Notes under the pieces: generated by a model
Told to the model about the DNA's origin: nothing
The model's database searches: none
The model's input: the letters and a program-made list of their open reading frames with translations, nothing else
Part shown: positions 35,952-43,837 of the stretch, piece by piece
Layout: every line of letters starts with the position of its first letter
Position numbering within the stretch: position 1 is the first letter of the stretch
Translations under genes and position numbers: made by a program
Assembly: GCF_900066015.1 (NCBI RefSeq)
Contig: NZ_LN890655.1
Location: 992,001-1,056,000 of the forward strand
Source of the DNA: Candidatus Promineifilum breve
GTDB lineage: Bacteria; Chloroflexota; Anaerolineae; Promineifilales; Promineifilaceae
Length of the DNA stretch: 64,000 nucleotides
Direction of reading: 5' to 3'

Positions 35952-37124
35952 TCAGGGCGTGGATGTTTGATATGGCTCGGTGATTATTTCTATTGTACTT
36001 AGCGTCCCCGCCACAACCTCCACCGGCTGCCTATGCTCCACGCCTTGAACCTGGGTATAGACCTCATACGTTCCGGCCGCCACCGGCCCGAAGACGAAGT
36101 TTTCGCCCAGCGCCGGGTCGGGGCGAATGGAATGATCGGGGTCATCCAGATAGGTCCACGTGGTGCGGTAGGGGGGCGCGCCGCTGGGGTCGATCAGTGT
36201 GACCGTCACGCCCTGCCACGCCCGGCCTTCGGGATCGACCAGCCGCCCGGCGATGACCCCCTGGCCCTCGGGCGGGGCCAGCCACAACACCGGGTTGCGG
36301 GTCGCGCCGAACGCATTGGCCCCCACGCGCACTTCCAGATGGACGTGGGGCACGACGGCCGCCCCGGCTGTGCCCTGGCGCGCCACCGGCTGCCCGGCGG
36401 CCACATGCTGCCCCTCGCTCACCGCCACGTCGGCCACGTGGCCGAACAGGGCGTAAACCGGCTGTCCATCGTGAAGTTGCTCGGCGCGAATGACGACGAG
36501 TTGGCCGTACCAGTCGCAGCGCCAGCCGAAGTGTTCGTCCAGGTCGTCGCGGGCCAGGATGACCTCGCCGGCGAACGGGGCAACGGCCGCCGTGCCCGCC
36601 TCGTCGGCCATGTCCAGACCGTTGTGCAGCAGATAGCGCCCGCTGCCATCGGAGCCATAGGGGTAGCCTTCGTTGCGCTCGCTGCCCGGCAAGGGGTCGA
36701 TGAGGGCCAGCGGCGGCGGCGCGGCGGCCGGGTCGGGCGTGGGCCAGGGCGCGGCCGACAGGCTGTAGGCGGCATAATCGGGCTTGACCGGCGGCGTGGC
36801 CGCGCAGGGCAGTCCGATGGCAGGATCAACGGTGGGTGTGGTTAAGGCTGTCGGTGGTGGACTGTCGGGCGTCGGTGGCGGGCTATCGGCCGTCGGCGGG
36901 GGACTGTCGGCCGTCGGTGGTAGGCTCTCGGTCGTCGGTGGTGGACTGTCGGGTGTGGGTGTCCGGCTTTCGGCCGTCGGCGATGGGCTAACGGCCGTGG
37001 GAGGTGGGTCGGCGGCCGGCGGTGTTCGCCCCCCGCAACTCACTACCAACAAAAGTAGCGCCAGACACGGCCAATATCCGTTTAATCCGTGTCCTTCCGT
37101 GTTTAATTTACATCTCTTCCCCAT
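35952..37124 (-). CDS. Lipoprotein M23-family (LytM-like) peptidase
   Basis: 390 residues from ATG 37124; a longer frame from 37208 is less likely. The signal has a lipobox LLLLVVSC followed by GG. A 60-residue Pro/Thr/Ser repeat (PPPT..DS units) forms a spacer. The M23 zinc motif is present: HNGLDM (H-x3-D), a GHVADV stretch and HVHLEV (HxH). A C-terminal domain with GVTVTLIDPSGAPPY and YEVYTQVQG looks Ig-like. It probably hydrolyses peptidoglycan cross-bridges at the cell surface. The first ten residues are encoded by an intergenic-repeat-like sequence. Confidence 0.78.
   Translation of the reverse strand: MGKRCKLNTEGHGLNGYWPCLALLLLVVSCGGRTPPAADPPPTAVSPSPTAESRTPTPDSPPPTTESLPPTADSPPPTADSPPPTPDSPPPTALTTPTVDPAIGLPCAATPPVKPDYAAYSLSAAPWPTPDPAAAPPPLALIDPLPGSERNEGYPYGSDGSGRYLLHNGLDMADEAGTAAVAPFAGEVILARDDLDEHFGWRCDWYGQLVVIRAEQLHDGQPVYALFGHVADVAVSEGQHVAAGQPVARQGTAGAAVVPHVHLEVRVGANAFGATRNPVLWLAPPEGQGVIAGRLVDPEGRAWQGVTVTLIDPSGAPPYRTTWTYLDDPDHSIRPDPALGENFVFGPVAAGTYEVYTQVQGVEHRQPVEVVAGTLSTIEIITEPYQTSTP
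37076..37112. repeat. ATCCGTGT-type repeat overlapping the lipoprotein signal peptide
   Basis: The plus-strand words AATCCGTGTCC and TTCCGTGTTTAA match the dispersed repeat seen at 22880-22975. On the minus strand they encode K-L-N-T-E-G-H-G-L-N-G-Y of the lipoprotein n-region. Confidence 0.55.
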
Positions 37125-39276: not shown

Positions 39277-40371
39277 CTAGGGCCAGCCCACCTCCAGCGC
39301 GTGGCACATGCCGCGGCCCATCCAGCCGTACTCGGTATCGGGCGCGGGGTTCAACATCCTCAGCCGCTGCGGCTGGACGCCGGGGCCGTTGTAGTATAGG
39401 ACTTCCACGTAGACGGCCTGGAAGGTGATGTCGATGTCGTAGAACCAGCCGCTATCCTTCCAGCCGTTATCCGCCTCCCAGCCGACGAGGAACCGGCCGC
39501 CAACTTCCTGGACGATGTAGAGGCCGCGCCGGGCCTCCTGGCCGCTGACGTCGAAGTTAATGCGCAGGCACGACGGCAAGCGCGGCTCTCTGGTCGGCGT
39601 GGGGCTGGGCGTCGCGGTGGGTGTGGCTTGCTCGGGCGCGGCCGTCGGCGTCACCGGCGTGGGGGTGACCGTGGCGGTGGCCGTAGCCGTGGGAGTAATG
39701 GTCGGCGTCGCCGTCATCGTTACCACAACCGTACCCGTTATGGTGGCCGTCGGCGTCAGGGTCATCGTGGGCGTCATCGTCGGCGTGGGCGTAAACGTCG
39801 GCTCCAGGGTGGCTGTGGGCGTCAGGGTATTCGTCGGCGTGGCAGTGATCTTTTTCGCGCAAACACTGATGAACATGCCGATGCTGTCCTGCACCTCATA
39901 GGTGAGCAGACCATTCTTGGGAACGATAAACCGCCCGCGCGTCGTCAATCCCTGACCCATCGTATAGATGATATTACCGTCCAGCTTGAAATAGTTGATG
40001 CGGTCGTCCTCGTCATCGTCGATGGTGGCGAAGTCGATGACACAATCCTTATCGACCCAGCCGACATGGCGCGTGACCTGATGATCAGCGTCGGGGGCAT
40101 AGGTATCGCCCAACACCGACCACACGCGCTCGCCCTCGCGGGCGGCATACTCCGGGCCGGGCATGAACATGAAGCTAAAAGGGTGGCGGGTTTTGACGAT
40201 GAAATTATACCCCTCGCCGACGTTGAACGTCCCCCCTTCGCCCAGATAGGTCAGTGACGGCACGTGCCCGTTGGCCTCTACGCTCCAGACCTGAACCAGC
40301 AACAGAACGGCCAGACCCGCCGCCAGACCAACACTGAAAACTGTCAATACCCGTACAGCATACTGCTTCAT
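39277..40371 (-). CDS. Secreted Thr/Pro-linker protein of unknown function
   Basis: 364 residues from ATG 40371 ([26 protein letters not shown] signal/anchor). An N-terminal domain has [37 protein letters not shown] 90-residue Thr/Pro repeat (TPTATxT units) links to a C-terminal domain starting [21 protein letters not shown] with [17 protein letters not shown]. No family is recognised. It is probably surface exposed. The start codon lies in a wide divergent spacer. Confidence 0.6.
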
Positions 40372-40464
40372 TACACTACCTCTAATTTTCGGCTCATTCC
40401 CACTACACATATTCAGTGTAGGAGGGTAGAGGTAGGCCATATGGGTAAAAATATACAGGTTATG

Positions 40465-40480
40465 TGTAAACTAGTTTACA
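40465..40480. promoter_or_regulatory. 16-bp perfect palindrome TGTAAACTAGTTTACA
   Basis: A perfect inverted repeat with no loop in AT-rich DNA, 94 bases upstream of the minus-strand start at 40371. It is the size and symmetry of a dimeric repressor operator. The cognate protein is unknown. Confidence 0.5.
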
Positions 40481-40636
40481 TAGCCGTTAAGAGGCAATGA
40501 ATTCGGATTTTGACTGTAATACTTGTAACGCTTTTTGTAATGTTTGCGTTCCAGTGGACAGTGGTTAGTGGGTAGTGGGCAGTGGGGCGTAGCTCTTTGG
40601 GTTGTGATAAGGATGTCGAGGGATGCACGAGGTAAA

Positions 40637-40678
40637 CTTGGACAATTTATTGACAATATAAGGATGTGGTGCTATCCT
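40637..40678 (+). promoter_or_regulatory. Promoter and candidate CarH operator of the carH-like gene
   Basis: TTGACA (40650-40655), 17 bases, TATCCT (40673-40678). Two GACAAT words sit at 40641-40646 and 40652-40657, exactly 11 bases apart, the second overlapping the -35. Both 11-base units (40637-40647, 40648-40658) fit the direct-repeat pattern nnTnnACAann that I recall for Thermus CarH, suggesting autoregulation. Confidence 0.6.
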
Positions 40679-40773
40679 TGTTCCCAACCGCCACTCTTCG
40701 CGGTGTGGATCGGCAAAGATACTCCTCTCTTATTTTCACGGCGCGGGCGCGAATCGGCCGAGTAAAAGAACCT

Positions 40774-42129
40774 ATGGCGAACGAGGATATTCCTACCTAT
40801 AACCTGAAGGCCGTTGTCCGCGAGACGGGCTTGAAGCCCGATACGTTGCGCGCCTGGGAGCGGCGCTATGGGATGCCCGATCCCGATCGCACCGGCGGCG
40901 GCCATCGCCTCTATTCCCAACGGGATATCAACACGCTCAAATGGCTATTGGCGCGCCAACACGAGGGCATGAGCATCAGTCGCGCCGTCGGCCTGTGGCG
41001 CAACCTGCAAGAGGAAGGGCGCGACCCCTTCCAGCTATATCCCCCCATCAGCCAGCACACGGCGGCCGCCGCGCCATCGCCCATCGAACTGGGCAACACG
41101 GTCGTCGATCTGCGCCGCGCCTGGGTCGAGGCCGCCCTGCGCTTCGATGAGCGCCAGGCCGAACTGATCCTCAATCAGGCGTTTTCGTATTACTCGCCCG
41201 AAGTGGTGTGCTTTGAACTGCTCCAGAAAGCCCTGGCGGAGATGGGCGCCGGCTGGTATGAGGGGGCGATCTCGGTGCAACAGGAGCATTTCGCCTCGGC
41301 TCTCGCCTTGCGTCGTCTCGATTCCCTGCTGGCCGCCACCCCCGCCCCCACCCAACCCGGCCGCATCATCGTCGGTTGCCCGCCGGGCGAATTCCACACC
41401 TTCAGTCCACTGTTGGTGACTTTCCTTTTGCGCCGCCGCGGCTGGGATGTGGTCTATCTGGGGGCCGACGTGCCCATCAACCGCCTCCAGGCCACCATCG
41501 AAGCGACCCACACCGATCTGGTCGTCTTCTCGGCCCAATTGCTGGACACGGCCGCTTCCCTCCTGGACGCCGCCCAATCGCTGGAGGACGCCGGTGTGTC
41601 CCTGGCCTTCGGCGGCCACATCTTCACCGCCACGCCCGGCCTGGCCGAACGCATCCCCGGCCATTATCTGGGCGACGTGTTGCAACAGGTGCCCTACGTC
41701 ATCGAACGGTTGGCGCTCAACCAGCAGCCTGCCCCACCCACAATACCGGTCACCGACAACTATCGCCGCGCCTGGGCCTATTTCCGCGAGCGGGCCAGCC
41801 TGATCGAAACCCAATTGTGGCAGCAAAATATGCGCTGGAACGGCGCCACCAGTGATTTTTCGGATATTTCCCACTATCTGACACGCAATATTTTGTCCGC
41901 GTTGCGCCTCGGCGATCTGGATTACGTGGGGCCAAACCTGGAGTGGGCGGCCGGCATCGTCAGTAACCACCACCTGCCGCCCCAGGCGCTGCCGGAGTTT
42001 ATGACGGCCTATACGCAGGCCGCCGCCCACCATCTGAGCGAGCCGGAAGGGCATCTCGTCGTCGATTGGCTGGGGAAAGTCACCGCCGCGCTGCAAGTCT
42101 CCCCGGCGCTGACCACCCCCAATCGATAA
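40774..42129 (+). CDS. CarH/LitR-type B12-dependent light-responsive MerR regulator
   Basis: 451 residues from ATG 40774. A MerR winged-helix domain (1-75: YNLKAVVRETGLKPDTLRAWERRYGMP) is followed by a helical bundle and a cobalamin-binding Rossmann domain (about 190-320). W161-x9-E171-H172 is the exact Wx9EH signature of CarH photoreceptors. E206-F-H208 corresponds to the axial-His ExH site. AdoB12 keeps such proteins tetrameric and DNA-bound in the dark; light breaks the Co-C bond. A further 130-residue C-terminal region is extra. The next two genes lie downstream on the same strand. Confidence 0.85.
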   Translation: MANEDIPTYNLKAVVRETGLKPDTLRAWERRYGMPDPDRTGGGHRLYSQRDINTLKWLLARQHEGMSISRAVGLWRNLQEEGRDPFQLYPPISQHTAAAAPSPIELGNTVVDLRRAWVEAALRFDERQAELILNQAFSYYSPEVVCFELLQKALAEMGAGWYEGAISVQQEHFASALALRRLDSLLAATPAPTQPGRIIVGCPPGEFHTFSPLLVTFLLRRRGWDVVYLGADVPINRLQATIEATHTDLVVFSAQLLDTAASLLDAAQSLEDAGVSLAFGGHIFTATPGLAERIPGHYLGDVLQQVPYVIERLALNQQPAPPTIPVTDNYRRAWAYFRERASLIETQLWQQNMRWNGATSDFSDISHYLTRNILSALRLGDLDYVGPNLEWAAGIVSNHHLPPQALPEFMTAYTQAAAHHLSEPEGHLVVDWLGKVTAALQVSPALTTPNR

Positions 42130-42156: not shown

Positions 42157-43107
42157 ATGCGCTACGTCATTACCGGCGGATCGGGCGTCATCGGCACAGC
42201 CCTGGCTACCAGCCTCCTCGCCGACGGCCACGAGGTAATTGCTCTCAGTCGCAACCCGGCCGGCCGCGAACTGCCCCGCGGCGTGCACGGCGTCAAGTGG
42301 GACGCGCGCACGGCCGACGGCTGGGGCGAATGGGCTGACGGCGCGTTCGCCATCGTCAATCTGGCCGGGGAGAGTATCGGCGGCTCGGGCACGATCCCCA
42401 TGCCCGGCACGTGGTCGGCCGAACGCAAGCGACGCATCAAGGAGAGCCGGCGGCTGGCCGGCGAGGCGGTGGTGGCCGCCGTGGCCGCGGCGGCCGTGAA
42501 GCCGCGCGTGGTCTTCCAGATGTCGGGCATCGATTATTACCCCACGACCAACGCCAAGTCGCCGGCGACCGACCCCGTGATGACCGAAGAGAGCGCCCCC
42601 GGCCGGCAGTTCCCGGCCGATGTGGTATCCGACTATTGGGAGCCGGTCACCGCCCCGGTCGAGGCCCTGGGCGTGCGCCGGGTCATCGCCCGCACCGCGC
42701 CCCTGCTCAATCGCCAGACCGGCCCGCTGCCCGCCTCGTTGCTGCAATTCCGGCTCTTTGCCGGCGGGCGGCTGGGTAGCGGCCGGCAATGGTTCACCTG
42801 GATCCACACCGACGATGCCGTGCGCGCCATTCGCCACCTGACCGAAAACGAGGCCGCGCGGGGCGTCTACAACGTGGCCGCGCCCGACATGGTGACCAAC
42901 GCCGAGTTTACGCGCGTGCTGGGCCGGGTCATGGGTCGCCCATCTATCTTGCCCGTGCCCGCCTTCGCCCTTAAGTTGATGTTGGGCGAGGTGTCCACGC
43001 TCGTGTTGGCGGGCCGGCGGGTCAGTGTGGACAAGCTCCAGGCGCTGGGCTTCACCTTCCGCTTTCCGACGCTGGCGGCGGCCTTGCGCGATTTAATTGA
43101 GAATTAA
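42157..43107 (+). CDS. TIGR01777-family NAD-dependent epimerase/SDR39U1-like protein
   Basis: 316-residue extended SDR. The nucleotide motif is VITGGSGVIGTALATSLL, then VNLAGESI and RRIKESR. The family's DUF1731 C-terminal region has VPAFALKLMLGE and LQALGFTFRFPTLAAALRDL. AAGGAG precedes the ATG. It follows carH by 27 bases. Such SDRs occur near light-regulated genes in several bacteria, so light control is a reasonable guess. Confidence 0.85.
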   Translation: MRYVITGGSGVIGTALATSLLADGHEVIALSRNPAGRELPRGVHGVKWDARTADGWGEWADGAFAIVNLAGESIGGSGTIPMPGTWSAERKRRIKESRRLAGEAVVAAVAAAAVKPRVVFQMSGIDYYPTTNAKSPATDPVMTEESAPGRQFPADVVSDYWEPVTAPVEALGVRRVIARTAPLLNRQTGPLPASLLQFRLFAGGRLGSGRQWFTWIHTDDAVRAIRHLTENEAARGVYNVAAPDMVTNAEFTRVLGRVMGRPSILPVPAFALKLMLGEVSTLVLAGRRVSVDKLQALGFTFRFPTLAAALRDLIEN

Positions 43108-43147: not shown

Positions 43148-43837
43148 ATGATACGCCAACCCGATATCGTCTTACACGCCAACGGCCGCCCGACCCGCGG
43201 CTATCTGGCCCGCCCGGCAGCCGACGAGCCGCGGCCGGGCGTGGTGGTGATTCAGGAGTGGTGGGGGCTGAACGACCACATTCGCGACATCGTCGACCGA
43301 CTGGCCGGCGCCGGGTTCGTCGCCCTGGCCCCCGATTTGTATTATGGGCAGACGGCGGCCGAGCCGGACGAAGCCCGCAAGCTGGCGATGGCCCTGGAAT
43401 ATCCCGACGCCCTGGGGGTGATTCAGGCGGCCATCGATTACCTGACCGCCGATGATGGCGTCGCCCCTAGTAAGATAGGGGTTGTCGGCTTCTGCATGGG
43501 CGGGGGGCTGGCCTGGCACGGCGCGGCCAAACTGGACGGCGTGGGCGCGGCCGTGCCCTGCTATGGCGGCGGCCCGGAAATGACGCCGGACGAAGCGGCC
43601 CAGATCCGCGCCCCCATTCTGGCGATTTACGGCGAACTGGATCAGGGTGTCTCGCCGGCGGTGGCCCAGCAACGGGCGGCGCTGATGGACGCGGCCGGCG
43701 TGGCCCACGAGACGATCATCTATCCGGGGGCGGGCCATGCCTTTATGAACGACCGGCGGCCCGTCTATGATCCCGCCGCGGCCGAGGATGCCTGGCAACG
43801 GATCATCGCCTTCTTCCGCCATAACCTGCGCGCCTAA
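43148..43837 (+). CDS. Dienelactone hydrolase family protein
   Basis: 229-residue alpha/beta hydrolase. The nucleophile Cys is in GVVGFCMGGGLAW, the Asp in YGELDQGVSP and the His in PGAGHAFMND, forming the C-D-H triad of dienelactone hydrolases. VVVIQEWWGLNDHIRDIVDRLA is the family's N-terminal signature. GGGAGG precedes the ATG. It is co-directional with the SDR and followed by a strong terminator. Confidence 0.9.
   Translation: MIRQPDIVLHANGRPTRGYLARPAADEPRPGVVVIQEWWGLNDHIRDIVDRLAGAGFVALAPDLYYGQTAAEPDEARKLAMALEYPDALGVIQAAIDYLTADDGVAPSKIGVVGFCMGGGLAWHGAAKLDGVGAAVPCYGGGPEMTPDEAAQIRAPILAIYGELDQGVSPAVAQQRAALMDAAGVAHETIIYPGAGHAFMNDRRPVYDPAAAEDAWQRIIAFFRHNLRA

Follow-up and report, generated by a model that had tools for sequence, protein, structure and literature searches.

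A candidate CarH-type operator at the promoter of a photocobilin-like MerR regulator gene in Candidatus Promineifilum breve, with related sites before carotenoid genes

The segment at 40635-40667 of the window (the whole 64-kb stretch of Candidatus Promineifilum breve DNA that was analysed) is very probably the operator through which a CarH-type protein acts on its own promoter, with repression by the AdoB12-bound protein in the dark, release in the light and a carotenoid regulon under the same control. The repeats, the promoter, their conservation, the sites elsewhere in the genome and the domain make-up of the protein are results of computation. The promoter region has the following arrangement:

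40635..40645, + strand: operator direct repeat 1, AACTTGGACAA, a full match to nAnnTnnACAn; its offset of -11 from the -35 is conserved in relatives
40646..40656, + strand: operator direct repeat 2, TTTATTGACAA, contains TnnACA and includes the -35, without the A of nAnnTnnACAn
40657..40667, + strand: possible weak pseudorepeat (at best a third unit), TATAAGGATGT, in the spacer; this slot holds TnnACA in some relatives
40650..40655, + strand: -35 hexamer TTGACA
40673..40678, + strand: -10 hexamer TATCCT, spacer of 17, preceded by TG

An earlier note on this DNA had described two GACAAT words 11 bases apart that overlap a consensus TTGACA-N17-TATCCT promoter, and both elements are present as described. 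The pair GACAAT-N5-GACAAT at 40641-40657, with word starts 11 bp apart over the -35 of the carH-type gene's promoter, is unique in the window (0 of 100 shuffles), and the exact pair has one further place only in the 5.03-Mb genome. The hexamers at 40650-40655 and 40673-40678, separated by 17 bp, form the sole sigma-70-like site found within 40366-40800. The note's 11-base pattern nnTnnACAann also fits, matching both 40637-40647 and 40648-40658. In the published form the CarH unit is nAnnTnnACAn, 11 bp long (PMC8156234), and CarH operators consist of tandem units of this length with the -35 inside one of them, and in some of them a single unit or a pair is perfect (PMC9304148, PMC8156234). The site described here contains two full tandem repeats of the form nnnnTnnACAn, one of which lies over the -35. 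Short G-rich repeats (agtggac, agtggtt, agtgggt and agtgggc) are located at 40553-40590, just 5' of this promoter.

The CarH/LitR operators of Thermus thermophilus, Bacillus megaterium and myxobacteria likewise consist of tandem 11-bp TnnACA repeats with one over the -35 (PMC9304148, PMC8156234), and as here they precede carH and carotenoid genes. They differ in the number of repeats, of which Thermus has three and B. megaterium four as against two full ones at carH here, and the Chloroflexota candidate, known from its sequence, belongs to another phylum. Because TTGACA itself reads TnnACA, the match at the second unit is partly trivial, and the informative part is the additional TnnACA 11 bp upstream of the -35. 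The carH site alone is thus weak evidence, and it was therefore tested by comparison with relatives.

In the whole-genome set, 22 of the 58 regions upstream of carH relatives contain a TnnACA pair at period 11, compared with 0-2 of 58 at the other periods from 6 to 30 and a shuffle mean of 0.46. A second set of 77 GTDB carH loci, which overlaps the first in part, has the period-11 pair in 24 and 0-2 elsewhere. When 81 distinct promoters of carH relatives are anchored on the -35, TnnACA is found at -11 in 19 and at +11 in 19, against 0-2 at every other offset tested. The motif at an 11-bp offset occurs in 42% of carH/crtB promoters and in 8% of background promoters (p 3e-17, a value that ignores kinship among non-independent sequences and uses as background promoters from the same DNA, among which a few true sites may remain). 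These sequence comparisons make 40635-40667 the probable site of autoregulation within a carotenoid regulon.

The earlier note had proposed looking for the repeat upstream of other genes. The exact promoter-plus-repeat pattern occurs at three places in the 5.03-Mb genome: the carH site, C1:202876 and C3:35881. The site at C1:202876 precedes an SRPBCC-like gene and a gene for a CrtD-like carotenoid desaturase; it was not found in two of the three genus relatives that have those genes (G005 and G007). With at most one mismatch there are ten matches, seven of which are not at carotenoid genes. One of these ten, C1:1182019 (one mismatch), is located directly 5' of a crtB-crtI-CYP-crtY operon, named from the reading of translations and homology, and displays three tandem units (CATACA/TTGACA/TGTGCA); repeat sites before crtB are kept in three other genus members. 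The match at C3:35881 was rejected as a regulon site and is probably due to chance, as it lies on a small contig (C3, 40.8 kb, locus L152) with terminase-like and primase-like genes, likely a phage or plasmid element. Also rejected was C1:3845781-3845808 on the - strand (L036:8782-8809), where three perfect GACAAT words with an 11-bp period lie over GTGACA-N17-TAAAAT: the words are without the T of TnnACA, and the promoter is that of an unknown 243-aa membrane protein adjoining an FHA gene.

The distribution of the genes points in the same direction. Among 59 genomes, 24 have both carH and crtB, 9 carH only, 2 crtB only and 24 neither (Fisher 3e-7). A carotenoid-pathway homologue is nearby in 36 of 79 carH loci, and carH and crtB are often neighbours. 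The operator reading of the earlier note is thus supported by the period-11 footprint in relatives, the crtB and crtD-like sites, this co-occurrence and the published consensus. In the literature located, Chloroflexota CarH appears in a passing note only, as a CarH adjoining crtB in Herpetosiphon, where the pigment is not light-induced. In three congeners (G001, G003 and G004, of which G001 is only 71% complete) carH, crtB and the crtD-like gene are all missing, which looks as though gain or loss had affected the whole regulon at once.

The gene controlled by this promoter, its domains and the genes that follow are located as listed:

40774..42129, + strand: carH-type gene, 451 aa, with MerR HTH, B12-binding_2, B12-binding and a C-terminal globin-like domain
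40798..40989, + strand: MerR DNA-binding domain, residues about 9-72, with the RxWERRY recognition helix R26-Y32
41095..41730, + strand: cobalamin-binding module, residues 108-319, with W161, Y162 (His132 position), E171-H172 and H208
41731..42126, + strand: C-terminal domain, residues 320-451, a predicted five-helix globin of the phycobiliprotein/photocobilin type
42157..43107, + strand: TIGR01777-family oxidoreductase, 27 bp after carH and likely co-transcribed; it follows carH in relatives too
43148..43837, + strand: dienelactone-hydrolase-family protein, possibly the third gene of the operon; not seen beside carH in the relatives scanned

The open reading frame begins with ATG at 40774 and has 451 codons. 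Its product combines the features of LitR/CarH proteins: a MerR domain (Pfam MerR_1, 8e-14) with an RxWERRY helix, in which R26, W28, E29, R30 and Y32 are invariant across the relatives' alignment and R31 nearly so, and a four-helix bundle with the Wx9EH motif (W161-x9-E171-H172) and the E/DxH lower ligand. Residues W161, E171, H172 and H208 are also invariant in that alignment. The signature defined for light-responsive cobalamin-binding domains (GxxW, EH, GxxH and GxxxP; PMC11796333) is fully present as GAGW, EH, GEFH and GADVP. By sequence, the closest solved full-length relatives are Thermus CarH, with which the protein shares the MerR HTH, the four-helix bundle, the Rossmann B12 module, and the W, EH and lower His residues (PDB 5c8d/5c8e).

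The departures from the Thermus protein are several. Tyr162 occupies the position of His132, the residue needed for the bis-His light state, Phe207 replaces the Arg preceding the lower His (GERH), and a C-terminal globin of about 130 residues is added. The classic D/ExHx2G/P ... SxT/V ... GG motif is altered to ExHxxS and SAQ, with GG kept, and the CarH equivalog model NCBIfam NF052513 scores 164 bits against a cut-off of 400. The Wx9EH motif and the length of 451 residues are as the earlier note gave them. Since both the equivalog cut-off and the strict B12 motif fail, we class the protein not as a standard CarH but as a LitR/CarH-type regulator of photocobilin-like form.

This variant is not an isolated case. 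In a tree of 74 sequences, 55 of the 57 long forms make up one well-supported clade of Anaerolineae-type Chloroflexota, and the His132 position is Tyr or Phe in most long forms and mostly His in short ones. Two long forms outside the main clade, L133 and L143, keep this His and perhaps represent an independent or older globin fusion.

The AlphaFold model of the whole protein (mean pLDDT 90) superimposes on the photocobilin 8j2w over 319 residues, from 108 to 446, with Z 30.2 and rmsd 2.5. When the C-terminal domain is folded by itself, all 50 best Foldseek matches listed are phycobiliproteins or smURFP, none below E 0.03, and against photocobilins it obtains Z 11, a level that helical bundles reach as well. 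Of these model-based comparisons, the full-length match is the stronger evidence for photocobilin kinship. A profile search with the sequence of just the C-terminal domain found no photocobilin and a Pfam search with it found no family, so that this kinship is drawn from the fold and from whole-length profile matches. The order that defines photocobilins, a cobalamin-binding domain followed by a five-helix phycobiliprotein-like globin, is seen in the predicted structure only.

The photocobilins SasPcob and AbDPcob (PDB 8j2w, 8j2x and 8j2y; PMC10979010) have their B12 module and globin in the same arrangement, and AbDPcob also has Tyr at the His132 position. By contrast, the 451-residue regulator adds a MerR DNA-binding domain and shares about 20% sequence identity with them. 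Its Trp391, kept in 43 of 45 sequences, aligns with AbPcob Trp289 and is the equivalent of SasPcob Trp296, one of the residues that bind the bilin there. An equivalent of SasPcob Asp270, the key bilin residue, is not evident, the candidate positions 365, 366 and 368 being Ile, Ser and Tyr, and a search of the genome for a canonical heme oxygenase (PF01126) found none. AbDPcob, with His at the place of Asp270, binds biliverdin poorly, and by analogy the globin domain may therefore be mainly structural here.

A mechanism can be proposed in which the 451-residue MerR-B12-globin protein with bound AdoB12 would occupy, most likely as an oligomer, the tandem 11-bp TnnACA repeats together with the -35 inside them in the dark. 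RNA polymerase would thereby be kept from the protein's own operon, from crtB-crtI-CYP-crtY and from the SRPBCC and crtD-like genes. Light would break the Co-C bond, the protein would let go of the DNA, and the carotenoid genes would be transcribed together with the repressor gene itself. Binding by this protein, the sign of regulation, the dependence on AdoB12 and light and the oligomeric state are what we infer. A PduO-type adenosyltransferase gene is present in the genome, so that AdoB12 can be made from cobalamin. Because Tyr stands in place of His132 and the corrin module is capped by a globin, light switching probably works as in photocobilins and not by the bis-His ligation of Thermus. 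It is doubtful that the Chloroflexota clade goes further, with a MerR-photocobilin factor on CarH-type operators that uses AdoB12 plus a bilin, so that red and green light open the regulon.

The B12- and light-dependent autoregulation predicted by the earlier note thus needs qualification, because the protein is without the Thermus His132 and carries a photocobilin-like globin domain. Efficient disassembly of Thermus CarH depends on the His132 ligand, and H132A largely stays tetrameric in the light (PMC10442372). However, CtMerR, which has Arg there, monomerizes in the light all the same (PMC11796333), and the missing His therefore does not exclude light control. These facts bear on the alternative that the 451-residue protein does bind a genuine operator here but in response to another signal (redox, a bilin, another ligand or B12 only), which is unlikely. 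Such a signal would suit the change of His132 to Tyr or Phe and the altered ExHxxG in most of the long clade, the added globin domain, the presumed dark habitats of some of the organisms and the absence of the whole set from three genus members. Against it stand the four light-responsive signature motifs, all kept, the behaviour of CtMerR, the Tyr of AbDPcob and the carotenoid nature of the regulon.

Two further explanations leave the protein out. The genome encodes a second MerR-type protein, and a regulator of this or another type could own the repeat and control both carH and the crt genes; this is very unlikely, given a site that is conserved before carH itself in diverse genomes and matches the published CarH unit, and a CarH recognition helix (RxWERRY) that is nearly invariant. 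The last explanation holds that the second GACAAT is an accidental neighbour of a strong -35. As TTGACA fits TnnACA, only four fixed bases are informative, and about 4% of background promoters have TnnACA on a given side in a loose scan, but the offset-specific conservation in relatives and the recurrence before crtB and crtD-like genes make such a coincidence scarcely credible.

The preferred reading, an AdoB12- and light-responsive operator of the CarH type, provides a concrete candidate for a CarH-type carotenoid regulon in Anaerolineae-type Chloroflexota. The photocobilin papers already suggest transcription-factor versions; what is new is a defined operator with target genes. By linking a known operator and its targets with a predicted photocobilin fold, it makes the idea of photocobilins as DNA-binding light switches directly testable. 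Among CarH relatives, the long forms are also a natural series where loss of His132 is paired with a globin, and this bears on B12 light sensing without bis-His ligation.

Two observations concern the neighbouring DNA. A divergent gene at 39277-40365 on the - strand encodes a protein rich in Thr and Pro that is probably secreted and belongs to no Pfam family; the operator does not extend over the promoter of this gene. Farther upstream, at 36846-37024, tandem repeats of 21, 42 and 84 bp encode the Pro/Thr/Ser-rich linker of a protein resembling a secreted M23-type peptidase.
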